A stretch of DNA of 30,101 nt from Candidatus Desantisbacteria bacterium CG1_02_38_46 (GTDB lineage Bacteria > Desantisbacteria > UBA1551 > UBA1559), in the NCBI GenBank assembly GCA_001871015.1, contig MNUO01000041.1, positions 1 to 30,101 of the forward strand, read 5' to 3'. Positions within the stretch are counted from its first letter, which is position 1; every line of letters begins with the position of its first letter. The translations under genes were made by a program, and so were the position numbers. Shown here piece after piece: positions 11,971 through 30,101 of the stretch. The notes beneath the pieces are model-generated. The model made no database searches, was not told where the DNA came from, and saw only the letters and a list, made by a program, of their open reading frames with translations.

Positions 11971-13203
11971 GTGAATAAAGAGTTTACAGAAATTTTAGGT
12001 CAAGTTGAAAAGGAGAAAGGCATACCACGCGAAAAGTTACTGGCAAATCTCCAGGAAGCATTGATGTCTGCCCATAAGAAAAAATTTGGCTTTTCCCACA
12101 ATGTTCGGGTTACCATAGACCCGGATAGCGGAGAGACCAAAGTTATCTCTTTACGGGAAATCGTTGAGAATGCTCCAAGGCCGGGTTTAGAAATATCACT
12201 TGAGGAAGCAAAAAAGATAAACCCGAAATACAAAATAGGTGAGAAAGTAGATATAGAAATTCCACTTAAGGAGTTTGGACATATAGCGACACAAGTAGCT
12301 AAACAGGTTATCACACAAAGAATCCGGGAGGAGGAAAGAGAATTTATCTATCAGGATTTAAAACCCAGGGAGAGAACCGTTGTGACAGGCGAAGTTCGCC
12401 ATAAAGATTACCAAAACAATTTCCTGATTGACTTTGGGAAAATTGAAGCTACTCTTCCAGTAAAAGAGCAGGTGAAGAATGAAAAGTATCGCCAGAGTGA
12501 CCGTGTAAAGCTCTATGTAGTAGAGGTAAAGAAAACATCTAAGGGCCCTTTTGTTATTGTTTCACGGACACATCCTGAACTTATAAGAAAACTTTTTGAA
12601 TTGGAGGTGCCAGAGATTTTAGAGGGGATTGTCGAGATAAAAGGAATTGTCAGGGAGCCAGGTGTTCGGGCTAAGGTTGCAATTTATTCTAACAATGAAA
12701 AAGTTGACCCTTTAGGTGCATGTGTTGGTATGAAGGGGGTGCGCATCCAGGCTATTGCCAGGGAATTGGGTTTGGAAAAAATTGACCTTGTTCGCTGGAG
12801 CGATGACATTGGTACTTATATCTTGAATGCTTTAAGCCCAGCAAAATCCAAAGAAATATTATTGGATAAAGAGCATAAGCGGGCTACTATTTTACTTGAA
12901 GATGAACAGTTAAAACTCGCTATCGGTAAGCAGGGACAGAATGTACGGTTGGCGAGTCGTCTGACTGGATGGCAGATTGATTTGAGAAAACGAGAGGAAA
13001 TTGTTCAAAATCTTACCTCAATTTCTGGCGTTGGTGAAACAATGGCAAGGAATTTGATGGAATCCGGCTTCAGGAGGATTGAAGATATTATCCGAGCTTC
13101 AGATGAAGATTTGTTAAAAGTTAAAGGAATTGGAGAATCCAAGGCAGTGAAACTTCGTTTGGCTGCCCGGGAAGCACTTAAAACTGCTAAAACGAAAAAG
13201 TGA
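11971..13203 (+). CDS. nusA: Transcription termination/antitermination factor NusA
   Basis: A 410-residue NusA with the usual order: N-terminal RNA-polymerase-binding domain (1-130), S1 domain (about 135-200, TVVTGEVRHKDYQNNFLIDF), two KH domains (about 230-345, DPLGACVGMKGVRIQAIARE and LAIGKQGQNVRLASRLTGW), and a helix-hairpin-helix tail (ISGVGETMARNLMESG and KGIGESKAVKLR). It binds RNA polymerase and nascent RNA to modulate pausing and termination. The start is GTG at 11971 after AAGGAGAG. It heads the nusA-infB-rbfA order found in many bacteria; rimP, often first, is missing, and the DHH-CBS-CCA gene and a palindrome pair are upstream instead. Confidence 0.96.
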   Translation: MNKEFTEILGQVEKEKGIPREKLLANLQEALMSAHKKKFGFSHNVRVTIDPDSGETKVISLREIVENAPRPGLEISLEEAKKINPKYKIGEKVDIEIPLKEFGHIATQVAKQVITQRIREEEREFIYQDLKPRERTVVTGEVRHKDYQNNFLIDFGKIEATLPVKEQVKNEKYRQSDRVKLYVVEVKKTSKGPFVIVSRTHPELIRKLFELEVPEILEGIVEIKGIVREPGVRAKVAIYSNNEKVDPLGACVGMKGVRIQAIARELGLEKIDLVRWSDDIGTYILNALSPAKSKEILLDKEHKRATILLEDEQLKLAIGKQGQNVRLASRLTGWQIDLRKREEIVQNLTSISGVGETMARNLMESGFRRIEDIIRASDEDLLKVKGIGESKAVKLRLAAREALKTAKTKK

Positions 13204-13231
13204 TAAAACAAGGATAGAAAGAGGTGATTAA

Positions 13232-15136
13232 ATGGCTAAGAAGAAGATTTCACAAATTGCAAAGGAAATGGGAATTTCCAGTAAAAAGTTAATTGAGGCA
13301 TTTCATAAACTCAAAATAAGTGCGAAGAAAGTAAGTGACTATGTTACAAATAAAGAAGCTGATAAGGCACTTGATTTTCTTACAAGTGCACCAAAAAAGA
13401 AGGTAGTGAAACCAGCTAGACCAAAACCAGTTAAAACTGCTGGTCCCAAAGTTAAAAAGAAGGCAAAACCCAGGGCACCAGCAAAACCCAAAATACCGCG
13501 AGAAGTTAAGGTGGCGCCAGCACCAAAACCAGTTTCAAAGTTAGAAGAGGTTGTTGCGCCTCCCACCCCTGCCGTTGGCATAAGTGCCCGAAACCTTAAG
13601 CCAAGGCCCCCAATAGTTACAGTGATGGGGCATGTAGACCATGGAAAAACTACGCTCCTGGATGCAATCAGGCAGACAAATGTAGCAGGAGGAGAGGCAG
13701 GGCAGATTACACAGCATATCGGTGCGTATGAAGTTGATGTGAAAGCTGGTAATACCAGTGGTAAAATTGTTTTCCTTGATACTCCGGGGCATGAAGCATT
13801 TACAGCGATGAGAGCAAGAGGAACCCGGGTGACTGATATAGTAGTTCTTGTTGTGGGCGCAGATGATGGAGTAATGCCTCAGACAATAGAAGCTATTAAC
13901 CATGCCCGTGCAGCGCAGGTACCAATAGTTGTGGCAATAAATAAAATTGATAGGGAAACAGCAAATCCTGAACAGGTAAAACAACAATTGTCTAACTATA
14001 ATTTAATCCCGGAAGACTGGGGAGGGGAAACCATCTTTTCACCTATTTCAGCACTAAAGAAGGAAGGGATAGACCATCTATTAGAAATGATACTCCTTCA
14101 GGCAGAAATGTTAGAGTTAAAAGCTGACCCTACGGTTCCAGCCAGAGGAACTGTGATAGAAGCAAGGCTTGATAAGCATATGGGTCCGGTAGCAACCGTG
14201 GTAATTAAAGAAGGAACTTTAAGAGTAGGCGATACATTTATCATAGGAACTCAGGATGGCGAATCTATAGTGCCCACGGGCTCAGGTGGAATTGGAAAGG
14301 TAAGGGCACTGCTCAATGATAGGAGTTTGAGAGTTAAAGAGGCTGGACCTTCCACACCAATTGAGGTTTTAGGTTTAGAAAATGTCCCGCAGGCAGGTGA
14401 AATACTTTATGTGATAACTGATAAAAAAATCCTGAAAGAAATTGAAGAGAAGAAAAAATTGACTCATCTCATTGCCCCTCCTAAAAGGCTAACCCTTGAA
14501 GATTTGTACAAACAGGTTAAGGAAGGAGAGGTGAAGGAATTAAAAATTGTTATTAAAGGAGATGTGCAGGGTTCAGTGGAAGCAATTACAAAGGGATTGG
14601 AAAAAACAACCTCCGAAGAAGTTAAGTTACAGATCATTCATAAAGGTGTAGGAGAAATTAACGAAGCAGATATTATGTTAGCCTCAGCTTCGAATACGAT
14701 TGTAATAGGGTTTAATGTAATCATAAATCCAAATGCCAGGAAGTTAGCACAATATGAAGAAGTGGATGTGAGATTATATAAAGTTATATATGACCTTCTT
14801 TCAGATGTGAAAAAAGCTTTGGAAGGAATGCTTCCACCTAAATTTGAAGAAGTAATTATGGGACGGGTTGAAGTAACTACTATATTTCAAGTTTCAAAAG
14901 TTGGAACTATTGCCGGTTGCAGGGTGACAGATGGTAAAGTAACAAGGGATGCTCGTGTTAAACTTTTGAGGAAAGAAGTCGTTATTTACGAAGGGAAGAT
15001 TTCAAGTCTGAAGCGATTTAAGGAAGACGCTAAAGAGGTGGAGAAAGGTTTTGAGTGCGGGTTAATGCTGGATAATTTCAATGACATCAAAGAAGGAGAT
15101 GTCATTGAAATTTATGGTATGCAACAAGTGAAATAA
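13232..15136 (+). CDS. infB: Translation initiation factor IF-2
   Basis: A 634-residue IF-2. The N-terminus has an IF2_N helix module ([20 protein letters not shown]), followed by a Lys/Pro/Ala-rich linker (about 54-118). The GTPase domain carries GHVDHGKT (133-140), DTPGHE (182-187) and NKID (236-239). Domains II, III and the fMet-tRNA-binding C-terminal domain follow, with GCRVTDGKV near the end. It places initiator tRNA on the 30S subunit and joins the 50S subunit using GTP. The linker is short, so the protein is at the small end for the family. The start is ATG at 13232 with GAGGTGA upstream, 28 bases after nusA. Confidence 0.97.
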
Positions 15137-19316: not shown

Positions 19317-20048
19317 ATGAACGCTAATAGCTTTGTTATAAAAATCGAAAAGACAGAAATATGGATGACATGCAGGGAGCCGTTGGCACCGTCAACTGAC
19401 GCGGATACTGTTTGTGATGGTCGGGCGGTAAGGGGATTTTTTGGAAATTTGTATAGAAACAGACCAGAATTTCATGGGCATTTAGGGGATAAGTTAATTT
19501 ATAGACATCCGCTTATTCAATATAAGGTATTTGGAGGGTCTATTCTTGTTGTTGGTTTAAAAGAAGGAGCATATCTTCTTAAGGCTGTGCCAGGACTTGA
19601 ATACATTGAAATATATTACAAGAAACATTCTATCGTAAAACAGAGCACTAGTAATATTTTTGTTCCTTTCGGTTTAACAGGAGAGATGATTAATTACACT
19701 TTTATAACTCCTTGGATTGGGTTAAACGAGAGAAACTATCAACTTTATTTAAACTTAAAAGAAAAAGGGAAAGATGCTCGTGATATGCTCAATAAAATCC
19801 TCATAGGCAATATTTTATCAATGAGCAAATCTGTCAATTATACTGTAAATGGGTTATTGCAAGTAAAATCAAAACTTAAAGAAGACATTGGAGTTGAAGT
19901 AAAAGAAGGTGTTAAATTGATTGTTTTTAAAGGTGAGTTTGAAACAAACTTTGTAATCCCAGAATTCTGGGGAATTGGTGGTAAAGTTTCACTGGGATAT
20001 GGAACGGTTAAGTGTTCAAAGGAGATAAAATACAATGAAACCCACTGA
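19317..20048 (+). CDS. cas6: CRISPR pre-crRNA endoribonuclease Cas6 (Cas6b-like)
   Basis: A 243-residue RAMP protein. The N-terminal half has RGFFGNLYRNRPEFHGHLGD (39-58) and YRHPLIQYKVFGGSILVVGLKEGA (62-85), a pattern I associate with Cas6b-type enzymes. The C-terminus has the glycine-rich loop WGIGGKVSLGYGTV (218-231). Cas6 cuts the repeat RNA within the CRISPR transcript and stays bound to the crRNA. H53, H55 and H64 are candidate catalytic residues, but I cannot assign them. It is first in the operon and overlaps cas8 by 14 bases. The ATG at 19317 has no strong Shine-Dalgarno site; a slightly different start is possible. Confidence 0.85.
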   Translation: MNANSFVIKIEKTEIWMTCREPLAPSTDADTVCDGRAVRGFFGNLYRNRPEFHGHLGDKLIYRHPLIQYKVFGGSILVVGLKEGAYLLKAVPGLEYIEIYYKKHSIVKQSTSNIFVPFGLTGEMINYTFITPWIGLNERNYQLYLNLKEKGKDARDMLNKILIGNILSMSKSVNYTVNGLLQVKSKLKEDIGVEVKEGVKLIVFKGEFETNFVIPEFWGIGGKVSLGYGTVKCSKEIKYNETH

Positions 20049-21810
20049 AATAACATTTCAAAAATTAAACCATTTCTGGCTGGATTCAGGACTATTGGGG
20101 CTTGCTGTAATGCTCAAGGAAGTTGATAGCAGTATTAAAAAAAATCTTAACGACAAAGGGCTGACTCTAATAGGAATTGAAAGCGAGATACAGAAAGCGA
20201 TTGAAAAAGCTTATGATTTATTGATAGGCAGATACTATAATACCTCAAAAAAAAAACAAATAGATGATACTTCTTCATATAATTTTTATTATGACAGCAA
20301 AGAAGATAAATTTGTTGCTTTTCCTAAAAAGAAATCGGTTGGCATCGCTGAACTTATATACAATAAAGCTCCTCGTCCCATAGGTTCTTCTGTAAAATGG
20401 CAGAGGGGAGAAAAACGTGAAATACAAATCAATGGTAAATTTATAAAGAGGAATCGTGGTATTTTACCACCATCACATGCCCATCTTCAAAAGATGATGG
20501 ATGAATTTTTGGATAGAAATGGATTAGATGTAACGACATCTGGGTTGCTTGTAGATGGTGCTAATGAAATTAGACCAAATGTAAATATAGTTGCAAAAGT
20601 TTCTGACAACGTGAAAGGGAATTGCTATTTGTGTGGAGAAAACAGTTCTCATTTTGAAGAGATAAGCCAGACAACATTTCCTTTTATCACTGGCTCAAGT
20701 GGACTTTTAAATTTCAACACTATGTGCGGCAAGCCTGAAAGAGTCTGCTGGAAATGTGCTTTCATCGGGAAATTTGTGCCAGTCAATGGGTTTTATATTA
20801 TGCAAGGAGACAACATCTTTGCCTTCTTTCCTTACTCAGTTTCTTTTGAAAAAATGCTGGATGTTTATAATACGCTTCAGGATGGTAAATATGAAGACCC
20901 CAACCTTTTCAAAAATTTTCAGCACCCATTGGGATTTGAAAAGTATGCAGATGGGTATTTTCAAAAAACATTTGAGGTAACATTTGCATTTCTCCACACA
21001 CTTTATAGGAGAGTTTTGCTGCATCAAAAGGCAGATGAAGATGTAGGAGTATTAAACTGGGAAGAAATGTGTAACCTTGCAATCTCAAAAGCTCCGCTGG
21101 AATTTGTAGTCCTTCATGCTGAATCGAAGGGTAAAACATCTATGGGTAAGATGGTTTGGCCATTTAGGGATTCTGTTTATTTCTTCAGATTAATGGAGAG
21201 CATGGAAAAGTCCAAAATAAACATTAAAGAAGTAATGAGACTACTTATAGATTTTTCACAGAAAAATCAGGAAAACAAAACGATACTGAGAAATAGATTT
21301 TGTGAACGAATATTAAAAAAGAAGACAGTATTGGATATTGTGGAAGAAAGAGCATGGGATATAGTATTTCCACAAGACCAGAAAAATTCAAAACCACAGA
21401 ATCCATCATCTTTAATAGATTTTTTTCTGAAATATGAATCCATTATAAAGGAGGGCAAAATGACAGATGAAGAAAGAAGTGTTGCAGTTACTCTTGGTAA
21501 GACCATTGGTTTATGTGTTTCCAAGAGAGACAATGAGACACGGTCAAAAAACGAAATTGAAAGGGACCTTAAGAGGTTAAAGGGAGATTTGATCAAATTG
21601 AAAAAAGTAAGAAAGCTAACAGATTTTTTATCAGAAATTGAAAGGTTAGAAGTTAGATATGATTTCTCCCTAGGGATTCCTGATGGACTATTAGATGGAA
21701 AACTGCGGGATGATAATTTTAGAGAATTCAAAGGGTATTGTACCATTAGTGCAATGCAAGCATATTCAAACGTCAGATATTATGCTTTAAAGGAAAAGGA
21801 GGGAAACTAA
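20035..21810 (+). CDS. cas8b1: Type I-B Cascade large subunit Cas8b1/Cst1
   Basis: A 591-residue large subunit with the two CXXC motifs that define the Cst1 (CXXC_CXXC) group: CYLC (197-200) and CWKC (238-241), with an extra C231, probably forming a zinc-binding site. The N-terminus HFWLDSGLLGLAVML is also typical. The large subunit recognises the PAM and holds the R-loop in the Cascade complex. The sequence downstream of about 420 is charged and helical, as in small-subunit-like domains fused to Cas8. AAAGGAG (20018-20024) lies ten bases before the ATG, inside the end of cas6. Cas7 follows after one base. Confidence 0.88.
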   Translation: MKPTEITFQKLNHFWLDSGLLGLAVMLKEVDSSIKKNLNDKGLTLIGIESEIQKAIEKAYDLLIGRYYNTSKKKQIDDTSSYNFYYDSKEDKFVAFPKKKSVGIAELIYNKAPRPIGSSVKWQRGEKREIQINGKFIKRNRGILPPSHAHLQKMMDEFLDRNGLDVTTSGLLVDGANEIRPNVNIVAKVSDNVKGNCYLCGENSSHFEEISQTTFPFITGSSGLLNFNTMCGKPERVCWKCAFIGKFVPVNGFYIMQGDNIFAFFPYSVSFEKMLDVYNTLQDGKYEDPNLFKNFQHPLGFEKYADGYFQKTFEVTFAFLHTLYRRVLLHQKADEDVGVLNWEEMCNLAISKAPLEFVVLHAESKGKTSMGKMVWPFRDSVYFFRLMESMEKSKINIKEVMRLLIDFSQKNQENKTILRNRFCERILKKKTVLDIVEERAWDIVFPQDQKNSKPQNPSSLIDFFLKYESIIKEGKMTDEERSVAVTLGKTIGLCVSKRDNETRSKNEIERDLKRLKGDLIKLKKVRKLTDFLSEIERLEVRYDFSLGIPDGLLDGKLRDDNFREFKGYCTISAMQAYSNVRYYALKEKEGN

Positions 21811-21811
21811 T

Positions 21812-22696
21812 ATGAAAAACGCAAAAGCATTAACAATAACCTATTTAACACCTGTTTCATTTGCAAGCCTGAATGGTTCTGATAAAGAAGCAGACAACAT
21901 CTCAAACATTAAAAAGATTACACGAGGGACAGAGCAATTCCCTTATGTATCTGCGCAAGCAATAAGAAGGGCATTGAGAGACCAGTTAGCCGTTATGGGA
22001 AAAAAACTTTCTGAAGGAGTAGCGGCAACGATTAAAAAAAGTGCCGCTACCACGGAACAGGATCCAAAAACATATATAGATGATGACTTATTTGGTTATA
22101 TGGGAACAGAGGAAGGCAAAGAAGGCAAAAAAGGTAAATCTACAAAACGCACATCACCTATTAGAGTTTCTCCTCTCGTGTCTTTACATAAATATGAGGG
22201 GGATTTGGACTTTGCAACAAACTTTATGGGGGTTGCAGCAGGTGGAGACCCAAATATATTTGAGACGGAAATACATTCAGGGCTGTACAGGGGAACTATC
22301 CTTATTGAGTTAGACAGGGTAGGATGTGGAGAGGGATTTGAGAAAGATTTGTCAAATACTGAAAAGGCAGCAAGAGTAAAAGACTTTTTAACATCTTTCA
22401 AAAATCTATGGACATCTGGAAGACAGACGAGATTCCTTGCAGACATCTCCCCAAAATTTATTGCAGCTGCAATGCTCCTTACAAAGAATCCTATATTTCT
22501 CGAATCAGTTGTTCCTGCAAATGGTGGAGTCAATGTTGAACTGCTTAATGAGACTACAAAAGACTATAAAGATGAAATTAAGGATTCAGTGTTTGGTGCA
22601 AGGAAAGGTTTGTTTTCAAGTCTTCCTGATGGAACGGTTTCCATTGGTGAAGTCTTTGAGACAATGTCTAAATGGATTGATGAATGCTACAAATAA
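21812..22696 (+). CDS. cas7: Type I-B Cascade backbone Cas7 (Cst2/DevR family)
   Basis: A 294-residue backbone protein that coats the crRNA spacer in Cascade. The family start ALTITYLTPVSFASLNGSDKE and the PYVSAQAIRRALRDQL motif (about 50-65) identify Cas7/Cst2/DevR. The central NFMGVAAGGDP and HSGLYRGTILIELDRVG segments also fit the family. A lysine-rich insertion (EEGKEGKKGKSTKR, about 102-115) lies where relatives have a variable loop. The Shine-Dalgarno site AAGGAGG precedes the ATG, which follows the cas8 stop by one base. Confidence 0.9.
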   Translation: MKNAKALTITYLTPVSFASLNGSDKEADNISNIKKITRGTEQFPYVSAQAIRRALRDQLAVMGKKLSEGVAATIKKSAATTEQDPKTYIDDDLFGYMGTEEGKEGKKGKSTKRTSPIRVSPLVSLHKYEGDLDFATNFMGVAAGGDPNIFETEIHSGLYRGTILIELDRVGCGEGFEKDLSNTEKAARVKDFLTSFKNLWTSGRQTRFLADISPKFIAAAMLLTKNPIFLESVVPANGGVNVELLNETTKDYKDEIKDSVFGARKGLFSSLPDGTVSIGEVFETMSKWIDECYK

Positions 22697-22709
22697 AAAG
22701 GAGTGTATC

Positions 22710-23417
22710 GTGTTAGCTTTTATTATTAAAGGCTTTTCAGTGACCGCTTCTTTTAGAATTCCTGAAAACCATACATTTCAACAAACTCTACCTTTGCCTC
22801 CTGCTACAACCCTGGCAGGTTTGATGGGGGCAGCGATGGGATTGAGTTTTGAAAAAGCAATGGAATTCAGGGAACAAAAAAATATTCTTTTCGGTGTTAT
22901 TGGCTCTAACAAAGGAGAAATGAAGGACCTCTGGAAATACAACAAAGTAAAATCAGGAGAGTTTTTAAAAGATGTATTAATACGGGAGTATTTGACTGAT
23001 TTTTCATTGACTATTGCAATAGCCTCAGAAGACCAGGCGGTTTTATCTGAAATAAGAAATAGTTTCCATAATCCCAGATATGCCTTAACACTCGGTAACA
23101 GTGACGATTTGTTTAAAATCAAATATATAGGCCCTGTTGTTGAATCTGAGGATGAGCAATGCTCAATTTTTGAGAATACATTATTGGTGGGGGAACAAAC
23201 ATTAAACTACGAGCCAGACATTGACTTAAAGAATACGCCGATAACTTACAGGGTTAGGGCTCCACAGGTTTTTCTCCTGCCAGCAGCTTTTAGTTTTAAT
23301 GGAGAAGAAAGAAGAGTGAAGGAAAGAAAGCAATTTACATTTATTGGTTCTCCTATAAAACTGAAAAATCCAATTTCTGTGTATAAAGTAGAAGATAAGA
23401 GGTTCCATCTATTATGA
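22710..23417 (+). CDS. cas5: Cascade subunit Cas5 (Cas5t-like)
   Basis: A 235-residue RAMP protein that caps the 5' handle of the crRNA. The family start is VLAFIIKGFSVTASFRIPEN, followed by QTLPLPPATTLAGLMGAAMG. The frame is open further upstream inside cas7, but GTG 22710 is chosen because AAAAGGAG (22696-22703) lies six bases before it, it follows the cas7 stop, and the protein then begins exactly at the conserved first strand. The stop overlaps the cas3 start in ATGA. Confidence 0.9.
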   Translation: MLAFIIKGFSVTASFRIPENHTFQQTLPLPPATTLAGLMGAAMGLSFEKAMEFREQKNILFGVIGSNKGEMKDLWKYNKVKSGEFLKDVLIREYLTDFSLTIAIASEDQAVLSEIRNSFHNPRYALTLGNSDDLFKIKYIGPVVESEDEQCSIFENTLLVGEQTLNYEPDIDLKNTPITYRVRAPQVFLLPAAFSFNGEERRVKERKQFTFIGSPIKLKNPISVYKVEDKRFHLL

Positions 23418-25654
23418 TTTTTTATGCAAAACCAAACCAAATTTATGAAGAACATCTTGAAGCAGTCTATACTGCATGGAAGGAGACCATAAACGCTAAA
23501 AAGTTTTTGATAAAAAGGGCTGCCGATAAATATAATTTTTCGGTAGAACGATTTCTGAAAGGCTCTCTCCTAACAATTGCATTTCATGACATTGGAAAGA
23601 TGATTGTTCCCTTTCAAGAAATGATGAGTGCCATAATTCAAAACAGCTCTTTTGATAAGAATAAAAACTACCGTCACGAACTGGTTTCATTTGTATATAC
23701 TGCGAAATACTGGCAGTTAATAAACAAAGAGGATTATTTATCAGCCATTCCATTAGAAGCAATTGCTGTTGCGGGGCATCATAAAACACTTGAGTCCGAT
23801 TTAAACTCATTTGTTAGAGAAAGCAGTTTATCTCCACCACAAATAATTTCCGAAGGAATCAAGGAGGCTGTTTGTATTGCTGAAAAACTATTCAGGCGAG
23901 AGAGTTGTTTTCTGCCTTCAATACAACAAAGCAATAAATGTGAAGACCCCTTCAAATCATTAGCAGGCCTATTTTTAAATTTTTTAAATAAAGGGATTGA
24001 AAGGGATGGCTCCGAAAAATGCAGAGATATCTATTTTCTTCTAAAAGGAATTCTTCATTATGCTGATTGGTATGGTTCTGGCAAAGAACATGTGGTCTAT
24101 AGTATCAATAAAGATATTCCTGTGGTTGTTAATGATGTTAAGGAGCGATGCAACAAGAAAGGTATAGAATTCGACGGATTGAGACCTTTTCAAGAAACCT
24201 GCAGTAAGCATTCTGGACACTTAATTGCAATAGCGCCAACAGGCAGTGGTAAAACCGAGGCATCCATCTTCTGGGCATTAAAAAATGCTAAAGAAATGAA
24301 TGGCGCTAAAATTATCTATTTTCTGCCTACTATGGTAACGGCAAACGATATCTGGGACAGGTTAACCGATTTCTTTGGTAAAGAAAATGTTGGTTTAACC
24401 CACTCAACGGCAAACTTATTCTTACAAAGCGATTCTTCGTTTGAAAATGAAGAAGACAGGTGGGAAAACAGGTGGAGTGTTCTTTTTAATCAATCATTTA
24501 TAAAACCGGTAACCGTAGGCACGGTAGACCAATTACTTACAGTTGGTTTTAATACTGGAAGGTGGACTTTAAAAGAGATAAATGCATCCAATGCTGTCAT
24601 CATCATAGATGAAATACACGCCTACGATGGTTGGACATTGGGACTTATCATTTCGGCAATCAGGCACTTTTCATCACTGGGTACACGATTTATGTTGATG
24701 AGCGCTACGTTACCTCAGTCTCTACAGCAGCTATTATCCAAAGAGATTAAATGTGATGTAATCGTTAAAGAGGAAACTCTTTTAAGTGCCAAGAGAAGCA
24801 GATATTTTGTTGTGGATGATCTGATAGATAATTCACTCGAAGATATTAAAAAAGCGATTTTAAATGGAAAGAGGGTATTGGTTGTAGTAAACACTGTTAG
24901 GCTCTGTCAATACCTAACTCAAAAACTGTCTGTATATAATCCCGTATGCTACCATTCGCAATTCATATTAAAAGACCGCAAAGCAATAGAAGAGAAAATC
25001 AATGAAGCCAGATTTGTAATAGCTACTCAGGTGGTGGAGGTATCTTTTGACATTGACTATGACTGGCTCTTTACTGAATGCGCCCCACCCGACGCCATTG
25101 CACAACGGGCCGGAAGAGTTAACAGATATAGAGACCCAAAACGAGATAGCAGGGTCTATATTTTTAAAGCGTCGGAAAGAGGAGAAAAAATTTACAATCC
25201 TATAAATGACCAAACATTGATTGCCCGTTCCTTTGAGGCATTTAAAAACGCACCTCATGAGATGATCGAAAATGATATTATCAAAATTGTAGAAATGGTT
25301 TATAAAGATTGTAAAATAGAGGATTCTGAATCGTTCAAGGATGCTATTCTACAATATAGTCTATCTCAGATAAATAGAAATATGATATTTGACAGCCGAA
25401 TAAAAGAAGATAAACAGGAAATTACCCGTCAAACCAAATATGAAACAGTTTCGGTTATACCCAAATGTTTTAAAGATGAGGTTTTAAACCTAAAACCATC
25501 AGAAAGACAGTGGTATGAAGTAAAAATTCCTCTGTGGTATGCGCGTAAACATAAAGAAGAAATTAAGGGTATTACATTCTGCGATGTTGAATATAATTCT
25601 AATATTGGAATAATACTCACAAAAGACGAGCAGTTATCCAGCGTAATTTTTTAA
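23414..25654 (+). CDS. cas3: CRISPR nuclease-helicase Cas3 (HD fused to DExH helicase)
   Basis: A 746-residue effector nuclease. The N-terminal HD domain has H14, HD at 58-59 (AFHDIGK), H88, HH at 122-123 (AGHHK) and D218 (YADWYG), a full metal set. The superfamily 2 helicase has Walker A APTGSGKT (274-281), DEIH (399-402), SAT (430-432), VVEVSFDIDYD (540-550) and QRAGRVNR (564-571). Cas3 is recruited by target-bound Cascade and unwinds and shreds DNA. The ATG overlaps the cas5 stop by 4 bases. All catalytic motifs are intact, so the interference module looks functional. Confidence 0.96.
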   Translation: MIFYAKPNQIYEEHLEAVYTAWKETINAKKFLIKRAADKYNFSVERFLKGSLLTIAFHDIGKMIVPFQEMMSAIIQNSSFDKNKNYRHELVSFVYTAKYWQLINKEDYLSAIPLEAIAVAGHHKTLESDLNSFVRESSLSPPQIISEGIKEAVCIAEKLFRRESCFLPSIQQSNKCEDPFKSLAGLFLNFLNKGIERDGSEKCRDIYFLLKGILHYADWYGSGKEHVVYSINKDIPVVVNDVKERCNKKGIEFDGLRPFQETCSKHSGHLIAIAPTGSGKTEASIFWALKNAKEMNGAKIIYFLPTMVTANDIWDRLTDFFGKENVGLTHSTANLFLQSDSSFENEEDRWENRWSVLFNQSFIKPVTVGTVDQLLTVGFNTGRWTLKEINASNAVIIIDEIHAYDGWTLGLIISAIRHFSSLGTRFMLMSATLPQSLQQLLSKEIKCDVIVKEETLLSAKRSRYFVVDDLIDNSLEDIKKAILNGKRVLVVVNTVRLCQYLTQKLSVYNPVCYHSQFILKDRKAIEEKINEARFVIATQVVEVSFDIDYDWLFTECAPPDAIAQRAGRVNRYRDPKRDSRVYIFKASERGEKIYNPINDQTLIARSFEAFKNAPHEMIENDIIKIVEMVYKDCKIEDSESFKDAILQYSLSQINRNMIFDSRIKEDKQEITRQTKYETVSVIPKCFKDEVLNLKPSERQWYEVKIPLWYARKHKEEIKGITFCDVEYNSNIGIILTKDEQLSSVIF

Positions 25655-25664
25655 AGGCACTTCC

Positions 25665-25778
25665 ATGCTTGGTTTACTCAGCATCTTCTCGGTGAATTTC
25701 GAGATTCCTGACTACCTCGGTATTGGCAAGTCGGTATCGCGAGGATTTGGAACGGTGAAGAAGATTAAAAATAATTGA
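25665..25778 (+). pseudogene. Relic C-terminus of a second cas6
   Basis: A 37-codon open stretch beginning MLGLLSIFSVNFEIPDYLGI and ending GKSVSRGFGTVKKIKNN. This is the last strand and glycine-rich loop of a Cas6 protein; the intact cas6 at 19317 ends in a parallel sequence (NFVIPEFWGIGGKVSLGYGT, then V). The frame is closed 21 bases upstream by TAA (25644-25646), so only the tail survives. It starts 11 bases after cas3, and its TGA overlaps the ATG of the next gene by one base. Its loop (GIGKSVSRGFG) is closer to the canonical Cas6 form than that of the intact gene. Confidence 0.8.
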
Positions 25779-27178
25779 TGCAGAAAAAGATGGAGATGAA
25801 TGACGAGGAATTGCTGGAGTTAATCAGTGCTGGAGAATCAGAGACGGTTGAATTCAAGCCATCTTTATCTCAGACAAATGAGATAGTTGAGACAGTTTCG
25901 GCTTTTTCCAATACGAGAGGTGGAAAAATAATTGTTGGAGTTTCAGATTCTGGAAGAGTATTGGGAGTTGATGGAAGCAAAGATGTTACCGAAAGATTGA
26001 CGGGCAAGATTCTTAATAATACCGACCCTCGCATTCATCCCGGGATTTTGTTAAAAAGAATTGATGAAAAAGTAATTATTCAAATCGATATAAAAGAATC
26101 TCTTGACCATTTGGTCATGGCGTTTGGTAGGCCGTTTAGGAGAATAGGAAAATCTACAGTGAAAATTTCAAAGGAAGAATATGAAAAAACCATTCTGGAA
26201 AAACACAGAGAGAAATTACGATTTGACATTGGAGTTTGTGAGGATGCAGATTTAGAAAGTATAGATAGAAGGAAAGTTAATTGGTATTTGAACAAAAGAA
26301 AAGAAATCAGAAAAGTCAAAAAACCACAAGTTCTATCTATCGAACAAGTTTTATTAAATATTGGAGCGGCAAAGGAAACAAATGACATAATAAAACCGAC
26401 AAATGCCGGCATCCTTTTCTTTGGTAAAAATCCACAGAGGTTTTTTGCTCGGTCACAATTGAGGGTCGTGAGATTTAAGGGGACAAGGGTTATACACCCA
26501 ACGATAGACCGATTTGACTGTGTTGGCACCCTGTGGGAGATGGTTGAGCAGGCAGAAGAATTTATCAGAAGGAACATTCGATTATTTGGTATAAGGACAA
26601 ATAAAAGTTTCATGCGAGAAGACAAGTTTGAATATCCGATTGAGGCATTAAGAGAGGCAATAATAAATGCTCTGATTCATCGCAATTACTATGAACCAGC
26701 AGACGTGAGAGTTTTTATTTTTGATGACAGAGTTGAGGTTATAAACCCTGGCAATTTTCCTGAAGGTGTTACTCCACAAAAACCCATTCATCGGCCGGTT
26801 AACGATATTCTTTGCAATTTTATGTATGACATCGGTTTTATTGAAAAATATGGTTCCGGGATATATATGATGCAGGAACTGTGCAAGGAGCAGGGTAACA
26901 AGAAACCTTACTATAAATTTCATCCATTGGAAACAAAAATTATTTTTGAATCGCCAGAAAAAGAAGTTATCTTCAGAGAGGATGAGAAACTGGAGGGATT
27001 TGAGGGGAGGCGAAATAAGATATTGCAATTTTTACAAAAATATGGAAGATTTACCAGAAGAGAATATGTTTCTATTAATAAAATTTCAGAAAAACAGGCG
27101 AACGATGACATTGAGAAAATGCTGAAAGAAAGAGAAATTGAAAGGCGGGGTAGGGGCAGGAGTGTTTTTTATGTCTAA
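25778..27178 (+). CDS. AlbA_2 (Schlafen-type) DNA-binding protein with GHKL ATPase-like domain (COG2865)
   Basis: A 466-residue protein. Residues about 16-140 form an AlbA_2 domain (GESETVEFKPSLSQTNEIVE, AFSNTRGGKIIVGVSDSGRV). Residues about 270-390 match the HATPase_c_4 region (YPIEALREAIINALIHRNYY, VEVINPGNFPEGV, EKYGSGIYMM). Residues about 405-466 look like a winged helix-turn-helix (RRNKILQFLQKYGRFTRREY, ISEKQANDDIEKMLKEREI). Members are annotated as transcription regulators or RecG-like helicase relatives; no helicase motifs are present here. It lies between cas3 and cas1 on the same strand. ATG 25778 overlaps the preceding TGA; TTG 25775 and ATG 25796 are other options, since no good Shine-Dalgarno site is seen. 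Confidence 0.88.
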   Translation: MQKKMEMNDEELLELISAGESETVEFKPSLSQTNEIVETVSAFSNTRGGKIIVGVSDSGRVLGVDGSKDVTERLTGKILNNTDPRIHPGILLKRIDEKVIIQIDIKESLDHLVMAFGRPFRRIGKSTVKISKEEYEKTILEKHREKLRFDIGVCEDADLESIDRRKVNWYLNKRKEIRKVKKPQVLSIEQVLLNIGAAKETNDIIKPTNAGILFFGKNPQRFFARSQLRVVRFKGTRVIHPTIDRFDCVGTLWEMVEQAEEFIRRNIRLFGIRTNKSFMREDKFEYPIEALREAIINALIHRNYYEPADVRVFIFDDRVEVINPGNFPEGVTPQKPIHRPVNDILCNFMYDIGFIEKYGSGIYMMQELCKEQGNKKPYYKFHPLETKIIFESPEKEVIFREDEKLEGFEGRRNKILQFLQKYGRFTRREYVSINKISEKQANDDIEKMLKEREIERRGRGRSVFYV

Positions 27179-27241: not shown

Positions 27242-28208
27242 ATGCAATTGGTAATTAATACTTATGGTTCGTATTTGCGTAAGAAAGACGAATGTTTCCT
27301 CGTGAAGAATGACGATAAAGAATTTGAGGTGTCGGCGAAAAAAGTGGAGAGCATCGTTATTACGACTGGTGCTTATCTTTCTACTGACGCTATCAAATTT
27401 GCAATGGAGAATAATATTGATGTTGTTTTTCTGGATGAATTTGGAAATCCCTACGGGAGAGTATGGCATTCAAAATTGGGTTCTACCACGCTTATCAGGC
27501 GTCGGCAACTTGAAATTGCAGAAACTGAAGCAGGGCTGGAACTTGCGAAATCTTGGATTGTTCAGAAATTTGATAATCAGATTGAACTTTTGAAACGGCT
27601 TGCCAATAGTCGTCCGGAGAAAGAATCCAAAATTCTTGAATATGCGTCAAGTCTGGACTCCATAAAAACTAAACTCGGTCAACTCGGCGGGACATTGGAA
27701 GAAAAAAGAGGAACAATTATGGGGCTGGAGGGTTCCGGTGGAAGAGTCTATTTCGAAGCGTTGAGTTTCATTACCCCGGAAAGATTTGAATTTGAAGGTA
27801 GGAGTCGCAATCCTGCAAAAGATGAGTTTAATTGCTTTTTGAATTATGCCTATGGAGTATTGTATTCAATGGTTGAAAAAGCATGCATTCTGGCAGGGCT
27901 CGACCCTTATGTTGGGTTTATTCACACTGATAACTACAATAAAAAGTCATTGGTTTTTGACATTATTGATATGTTCAGGACTTATGCAGACCAGACAGTT
28001 GTATATTTATTAAGCCAGAGGAAAGTTAAAAAAGAACATCGCGATGAGATTAAAGGCGGGTTTACTTTGAATAAAGAAGGTAAGGTAGTGTTGATATCGG
28101 CATTAAACGAGACATTCGATAAAACGCAGAGGTATAAAGGTAGGAATATCAAAAATCGGGATACGATTCAGTTTGAATGCCACAGGATTGCAAACGAGTT
28201 AATAAAGT

Positions 28209-28210
<2 letters not shown>
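27242..28210 (+). CDS. cas1: CRISPR integrase Cas1
   Basis: A 322-residue Cas1, the metal-dependent integrase that inserts new spacers at the leader end. The N-terminal beta domain has the TTGAYLSTDAIKFAMENNID motif. The catalytic helical domain has E163 (GLEGSGGRVYFEAL), H228 (VGFIHTDN) and D240/D243 (LVFDIIDMFR), plus the RSRNPAKDEFNCFLNYAYGVLYS signature. All active-site positions are filled. It is the first gene after the 12-bp tandem repeat and is followed by cas2 and cas4, so the adaptation module is complete. The ATG is preceded by GTGAGG. Confidence 0.97.
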
Positions 28211-28550
<340 letters not shown>

Positions 28551-28552
28551 AT

Positions 28553-29143
28553 ATGTTTGAAAATGCCATTTCAATTACGCCATCTGAAGTTATTGAATAT
28601 TTGTTTTGCCCGAGGTTTACCTATTTTATGAATTGCCTGGATATACCGCAACACGAAGAAAAGAGATATAAAGTCCTGAAAGGTCGCGAATTACATGAGA
28701 GACGGGCGGTTATAAATAAGGGTTACTTACGAAAGAAAATTGATTGCACGAACAAAGAATCTCTTGTATATTTAAATTCTGACAATCATCACATCAGAGG
28801 GATAATAGATGAAGTACTTTATCTGGTTGATGGGACAATGGCACCCCTGGATTACAAATTTGCAGAATATAAGGAATATTTGTACCGCACGCACAGAATT
28901 CAGTCAGTGCTTTATGGAATTTTGATAAGAGAAAATTATCAAAGGGAAGTTAAAAAAGGATATCTATGTTACATTAGGAGTAATTATCTGGTGAAGGAAG
29001 TGCAATTTGAGCAAAAGAATTTTGATGAGGCATATCAGACTATAAATGAAATTTTAAAAATAATTGGCGATGGGTATTATCCTAAAAAGACTGGATACAG
29101 AGTCAGATGTATTGATTGTTGCTACAAAAATATTTGTGTTTGA
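28553..29143 (+). CDS. cas4: CRISPR adaptation exonuclease Cas4
   Basis: A 196-residue RecB-like nuclease with a 4Fe-4S cluster. C19 in EYLFCPR pairs with C186, C189 and C195 in the C-terminal RCIDCCYKNIC. The nuclease core has GIIDEVLYL, then LDYKFAEYK, the PD-(D/E)XK residues, and a QSVLYG motif. Cas4 trims and orients prespacers so that they carry the right PAM. It is the last gene before the leader. Placement after cas2 is less usual than the cas4-cas1-cas2 order I would expect in type I-B. Confidence 0.94.
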   Translation: MFENAISITPSEVIEYLFCPRFTYFMNCLDIPQHEEKRYKVLKGRELHERRAVINKGYLRKKIDCTNKESLVYLNSDNHHIRGIIDEVLYLVDGTMAPLDYKFAEYKEYLYRTHRIQSVLYGILIRENYQREVKKGYLCYIRSNYLVKEVQFEQKNFDEAYQTINEILKIIGDGYYPKKTGYRVRCIDCCYKNICV

Positions 29144-29305
29144 GGTGCTAAATTCAATTTTCCGTCGGTAAAATAGATGAAAAAGTATGTAAAAAATGTA
29201 AAAATTGGTAGAAAATATATGGAAAATAGTGTCAGGTTAAGGAAAATTGGCTTTCCTCAAAAAATGATAAGTGATGTTATTTCAAATGGTTTTAAAGAAA
29301 GTGCA
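29144..29305 (+). promoter_or_regulatory. CRISPR leader
   Basis: 162 AT-rich bases between the cas4 stop and the first repeat, with A-runs and a repeated ATGTAAAAA phrase near the start. The position next to the adaptation genes, and a repeat whose ATTGAAAC end points away from it, mark it as the leader where transcription starts and new spacers enter. No clear -35/-10 pair was identified. Confidence 0.75.
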
Positions 29306-30101
29306 GTCTGAAACCCGAGTCCATTAAAACAAGGATTGAAACAAAAATACAAAATGTAGTAAATAATAAAGAAGTAAATGTCTGAAACCCGAGTCCATTA
29401 AAACAAGGATTGAAACTTGCACTTCGGGCAAACAGGGAATTTACCATTTATCGTCTGAAACCCGAGTCCATTAAAACAAGGATTGAAACAATACACTCAT
29501 TCTATCCTTATATCTCTTTTTTTTGTCTGAAACCCGAGTCCATTAAAACAAGGATTGAAACATATCAAATTTCCGTTCGGTAAGAAAACTTTTGATATGT
29601 CTGAAACCCGAGTCCATTAAAACAAGGATTGAAACTTGACTATGGAAGCGGAGCAGTATCTCATTATGTAGGTCTGAAACCCGAGTCCATTAAAACAAGG
29701 ATTGAAACAAAAATACAAAATGTAGTAAATAATAAAGAAGTAAATGTCTGAAACCCGAGTCCATTAAAACAAGGATTGAAACTTGCACTTCGGGCAAACA
29801 GGGAATTTACCATTTATCGTCTGAAACCCGAGTCCATTAAAACAAGGATTGAAACAATACACTCATTCTATCCTTATATCTCTTTTTTTTGTCTGAAACC
29901 CGAGTCCATTAAAACAAGGATTGAAACATATCAAATTTCCGTTCGGTAAGAAAACTTTTGATATGTCTGAAACCCGAGTCCATTAAAACAAGGATTGAAA
30001 CTTGACTATGGAAGCGGAGCAGTATCTCATTATGTAGGTCTGAAACCCGAGTCCATTAAAACAAGGATTGAAACACCAATAAAAATTCTTATCTTCTTCT
30101 G
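29306..30101 (+). CRISPR. CRISPR array, 11 identical 37-bp repeats, continues past window end
   Basis: The repeat begins GTCTGAAACCCGAGTCC and ends CAAGGATTGAAAC; all 11 copies are identical (starts at 29306, 29380, 29453, 29525, 29599, 29672, 29746, 29819, 29891, 29965, 30038). Spacers are 35-37 bases. Spacers 1-5 are exactly repeated as spacers 6-10, so 29306-29671 and 29672-30037 are a perfect 366-bp tandem duplication. Spacer 11 (from 30075) is different and cut by the window end. The ATTGAAAC 3' end is typical of repeats used by type I-B systems and gives the 8-base crRNA handle. Transcription is expected on the + strand from the leader. Confidence 0.99.

Follow-up and report, generated by a model that had tools for sequence, protein, structure and literature searches.

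The CRISPR array of a type I-B system in the draft genome of Candidatus Desantisbacteria bacterium CG1_02_38_46 carries two exact tandem copies of a block of five repeat-spacer units at its leader end, and we consider it rather probable that this is a real block duplication that arose by mispairing of identical repeats. As far as the assembled sequence can be relied upon, the second copy is probably both real and recent. The window analyzed is one whole contig (C60, 30101 bp) of a draft genome of 133 contigs and 1.73 Mb that is 87.8% complete.

The array occupies positions 29306-30101 and comprises 11 repeats of 37 nt, all identical (GTCTGAAACCCGAGTCCATTAAAACAAGGATTGAAAC) and starting at 29306, 29380, 29453, 29525, 29599, 29672, 29746, 29819, 29891, 29965, and 30038 on the forward strand. 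All 11 score as Rfam CRISPR-DR7 (RF01320). Spacers 1-5, with lengths of 37, 36, 35, 37, and 36 nt, match spacers 6-10 in order without a single mismatch. The first copy of the block, i.e., repeats 1-5 with spacers 1-5, spans 29306-29671 and the second, identical copy, repeats 6-10 with spacers 6-10, spans 29672-30037; the second copy is followed on the same strand by repeat 11 (30038-30074) and by the first 27 nt of spacer 11 (30075-30101), which is cut by the contig end. The tandem period is 366 bp, and comparison of position 29306 with position 29672 revealed exact identity over 404 bp rightwards and 0 bp leftwards, the 38 bases of identity past the 366-bp unit being repeat 11 and one base shared by chance. 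Within each copy the spacers are all unique and the spacing is regular, and the copies are identical, in the same order and with the repeat register kept, as is characteristic of a duplication. The coordinates and the exact five-unit tandem reported in a preliminary description of this DNA were hence confirmed with respect to period, mismatches, and the identity of the repeats. A chance match between spacers 1-5 and 6-10 was rejected, as five distinct 35-37-nt spacers agree in order. Spacer 4 (29562-29598 and 29928-29964) possesses 8-bp perfect inverted ends (ATATCAAA...TTTGATAT) that would permit folding into a hairpin; in comparison with shuffled sequences, its folding was not significantly better.

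The array adjoins a cas operon that is apparently complete and in which the cas genes appear intact. Profile matches identified the effector genes on the forward strand as cas6, coding for the crRNA-processing endonuclease (19317-20048; PADLOC Cas6, E = 8.6e-58), cas8b, coding for the type I-B large subunit (20035-21810; PADLOC Cas8b, E = 8.3e-26), cas7b of the Cst2/DevR type (21812-22696; TIGR02585 above cut-off and PADLOC Cas7b, 2e-69), cas5b (22680-23417; PADLOC Cas5b, 3.7e-19; start codon inferred from the overlap with cas7), and cas3, coding for HD nuclease and helicase (23414-25654; PADLOC Cas3b, 1.4e-226; TIGR01587 and TIGR01596 above cut-off). The adaptation module cas1-cas2-cas4 (27242-29143), likewise on the forward strand, lies next to the array (29306) and consists of the cas1 integrase gene (27242-28210; TIGR00287 above cut-off), cas2 (28230-28550; TIGR01573 above cut-off), the true start of which is probably near 28260 since the profile match begins at residue 11, and cas4 (28553-29143; TIGR00372 above cut-off). 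In Cas1, E163, H228, and D240 are invariant across ten aligned relatives and presumably form its catalytic triad. The effector set, the adjoining adaptation module, and the near-identical repeats with regular unique spacers are all in accordance with type I-B. The repeats end in a ATTGAAAC handle, which gives the orientation of the array, and the 162 bp between the cas4 stop codon and repeat 1 (29144-29305, forward strand) are non-coding and presumed to be the leader; on these two grounds the block was placed at the leader, i.e., young, end. The cas operon also contains, at 25775-27178 between cas3 and cas1, a gene with Schlafen/AlbA_2 and RecG-C-terminal-like domains (PF04326, PF13749), and the window additionally encodes a BrnT-type toxin and CopG-type antitoxin pair at 592-1163.

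We propose that repeat 1 and repeat 6, two non-equivalent repeats of identical sequence, mispaired between sister DNA copies and that replication slippage or an unequal RecA-type exchange then inserted a second S1-S5 block, which would yield the order leader-S1-S5-S1-S5-S11. Since all repeats are identical, the crossover may have occurred anywhere in a 37-38-bp stretch with perfect repeat-spacer register being kept. The exact 366-bp period in register and the fact that identity ends just past a repeat boundary support such a repeat-repeat exchange. The genome encodes a RecA gene, which was counted in favor of the duplication but does not decide between a RecA-dependent and a RecA-independent route. 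As regards timing, there is no spacer on the leader side of the block that is not part of it, which, assuming acquisition at the leader end, suggests that the duplication is younger than the last retained acquisition (spacer 1). The event had been called very recent in the preliminary description, and this holds in the relative sense only. A doubled block would be expected to be unstable and to collapse back easily, which fits a recent event, and the same five crRNAs would be expected from the ten units.

Block duplication by repeat-repeat misalignment is a well-documented and ordinary phenomenon. SpacerPlacer reconstructions on CRISPRCasdb yielded 695 duplications in 24,090 spacers (approximately 3%), with block-deletion lengths that follow a geometric distribution with a mean of 2.7 and with deletions as well as duplications being related to replication misalignment (PMC11472070). 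If duplications obey the same length law as deletions, our own arithmetic on this mean gives a probability of approximately 0.16 for blocks of at least five units, and thus the size of the block found here is not extraordinary. The review "Pruning and Tending Immune Memories" interprets repeated blocks as duplications for which misalignment of repeats is proposed, discusses RecA-dependent and RecA-independent routes while noting that direct evidence for either is still absent, and deems identical spacer series generated by repeated acquisition unlikely (PMC8047081). Spacer-repeat regions are also sometimes duplicated in Sulfolobus (PMC4390879), and in CRISPR1 of group B Streptococcus spacer duplication was found in 35.6% of isolates, mostly internally, whereas deletions never hit the leader-adjacent spacer (PMC5641575). 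The internal location of most of these changes and the sparing of the leader-adjacent spacer by deletions were counted against a real duplication at the leader end of the present array. The published block duplications resemble the one in C60 in that exact units are duplicated in register by repeat misalignment or recombination (PMC5641575; PMC11472070; PMC4390879; PMC8047081). By contrast, the C60 duplication involves five units at once, is located next to the leader, and was seen in one strain, where the draft contig terminates close behind it.

Related arrays were surveyed starting from Cas1 relatives in the genome collection, which led to 79 loci; of 55 rows listed by the array finder, 54 arrays with approximately 1,375 spacers were kept, and L066, which has a 25-nt unit, was removed as not being CRISPR. 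Among arrays not cut by a contig end, 7 of 35 contained a duplicated spacer when up to three mismatches were allowed, and 3 of 35 (L087, L092, and L102) contained exact tandem duplications of one or two units. Tandem duplication is thus a normal event in related arrays, and the rarity implied by the preliminary description was overstated in view of these three arrays and of the share of duplicated spacers in CRISPRCasdb. The three cases have zero-mismatch adjacent copies as in C60 but differ in extent: Methanosarcina sp. DH2 (L087) shows a two-unit and a one-unit duplication (spacers 15-18 and 33-34 of 39), while only one unit is duplicated in Methanoperedenaceae GB37 (L092; spacers 72-73 of 83, on a 1.92-Mb contig) and in Acididesulfobacter (L102; spacers 60-61 of 74). 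All of them are interior in long arrays and none is located at the leader, in contrast to the C60 block. No five-unit block was seen among the 54 arrays, which was counted against a real duplication and places the five-unit leader-end block at the large end of the size range, above any in the survey. Arrays cut at contig ends showed no duplicated spacer (0 of 19), a weak test given that these arrays are short (3-16 repeats). Set against the 3 of 35 uncut arrays, this count indicates that spurious tandem blocks are not a common feature of arrays truncated at contig ends.

The preliminary description correctly named repeat recombination, replication slippage, and assembly artefact as the causes to consider, and its caution about the assembly was justified, as the draft is fragmented and the array runs up to the end of its contig: exact identity stops 26 bases before that end, a proximity that was counted against a real duplication. 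Exact repeats were listed in 49 sampled contigs (0.59 Mb) of the same genome, and almost all of those of at least 100 bp have a copy at or within approximately 110 bp of a contig end, which likewise spoke against it. Contig ends overlap unmerged over 344 bp in the pair C2/C68 and over 300 bp in C13/C17, the end of C27 shares a 243-bp exact repeat with the start of C60 and contains positions 1-251 of C60 nearly exactly, C77 opens at base 1 with an exact 2 × 109-bp tandem, and the ends of C4 and C78 also carry tandems. Like the C60 block, the terminal repeats of C77, C4, C78, C13/C17, and C2/C68 are exact and located at contig ends; however, the terminal tandems have periods of 58-109 bp, whereas the C60 tandem has a period of 366 bp and CRISPR register. 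Two tandems away from contig ends were exceptions: one in the interior of C64, where the exact runs measure 473, 389, and 216 bp, and a short one in C68. Ranked by length of exact run, the C60 block came second in the sample. Assembly thus mostly halted at repeats of such size, so that the copy number in C60 is not to be taken at face value. The C64 tandem (L173; 2830-4938) has a period of 1029 bp, which is divisible by 3; its copies differ by single bases only, and it is possibly a repetitive gene. Short dispersed repeats with CGACCACTACA-like units, often in tandem, occur in many places of the genome (e.g., L016:1-500 and C91 at approximately 12400-12500). IS copies were considered as a measure of how well the assembly resolves repeats, but the transposase of C91 is single-copy and therefore uninformative.

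It is conceivable, though somewhat doubtful, that a single S1-S5 block exists in the true array and that the second was created in assembly, either by walking the tangle twice or by joining redundant fragments through the 37-bp repeat. This would be in line with the contig end falling inside the array, with the second array of the same genome being likewise cut at a contig end, with the unresolved overlaps and tandems at several contig ends, and with the k-mer calculation, in which one-copy and two-copy arrays shared identical k-mers at k ≤ 39. From k = 41 upward, however, additional k-mers distinguish the two-copy array, every one of them derived from the S5-repeat-S1 junction (29636-29745, forward strand), which exists only with at least two copies. 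An assembler based on k-mers and run at a usual final k must therefore have met junction reads, and an artefact has to invoke a walk at small k, a merge across the 37-bp repeat, or reads that are chimeric, none of which a real duplication needs. The lack of tandem blocks in the other 19 arrays that stop at a contig end argues in the same direction, as does the C64 interior tandem, which shows that some repeats of this size (exact runs of 473 and 389 bp) passed through assembly, although single-base differences distinguish its copies.

The k-mer calculation was less favorable as to the number of copies: the array graph keeps a branch or loop through k = 405 and copy number is not fixed below k = 406, meaning that two copies were the choice of the assembler, and this loop was counted against the real duplication as well. 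Accordingly, the junction might be present in reads without the genome being as drawn, i.e., as a minority variant, as a PCR chimera of the library, or as a collapse of more copies into two. The fragmentation of the draft into 133 contigs would agree with these variants, and identical 37-nt repeats permit template switching, a point in favor of a chimera; nevertheless, we regard this group of explanations as unlikely. That the five spacers were acquired twice independently is excluded in practice, as five identical captures of 35-37 nt in identical order would be needed, which agrees with the view of such series taken in the review (PMC8047081); the two copies go back to a single copying event. 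Misalignment of repeats followed by a real block duplication remains the explanation that we favor, with two copies being the number indicated by the assembly.

The search for relatives and targets of the array covered its own genome, other genomes, and viral sequences. The C60 repeat was not found elsewhere in its own genome with up to three mismatches, gave 0 matches in 97 other genomes, and had no match in an exact scan of viral contigs; the relatives drawn include one genome from the same order and none closer, the lineage being poorly sampled. No match was obtained for spacers 1-5 and the spacer-11 stub in an exact scan of viral contigs, phages and plasmids yielded chance-level matches only when searched with the block by BLAST, and the same was true, with weak matches, for self-targeting in the own genome, the second array aside. 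This second CRISPR array, with the repeat variant GTTTGAACGACGAGTCC..., is located where contig C91 ends and is likewise truncated there; it was considered as the missing continuation of the C60 array, but its repeat differs at 4 of the first 10 positions, which makes a separate array more likely. The end of the second array (L040; 12509-13541, minus strand) carries the repeat variant GTTTGAACGACGAGTCCATTAAAACAAGGATTGAAAC, and a complete DUF5714 gene (12608-13354) separates the final two repeats of this array, which looks as though 830 bp took the place of a single spacer or a gene were flanked by two arrays.

A higher dose of the five crRNAs, the doubling of which was put forward in the preliminary description on the condition that the block is real, would be plausible. 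It is very improbable, by contrast to a neutral slip, that selection retained a duplicate of the five newest immunities because doubled leader-end units raised the matching crRNAs under ongoing viral attack. If the second copy is an artefact, the spacer counts of draft contigs that truncate arrays need to be checked for tandem blocks. If it is real, it would represent a clean case of misaligned repeats next to the leader, where published losses are rare, and would be a reminder that spacer order at the leader end is not always a strict record of acquisition.
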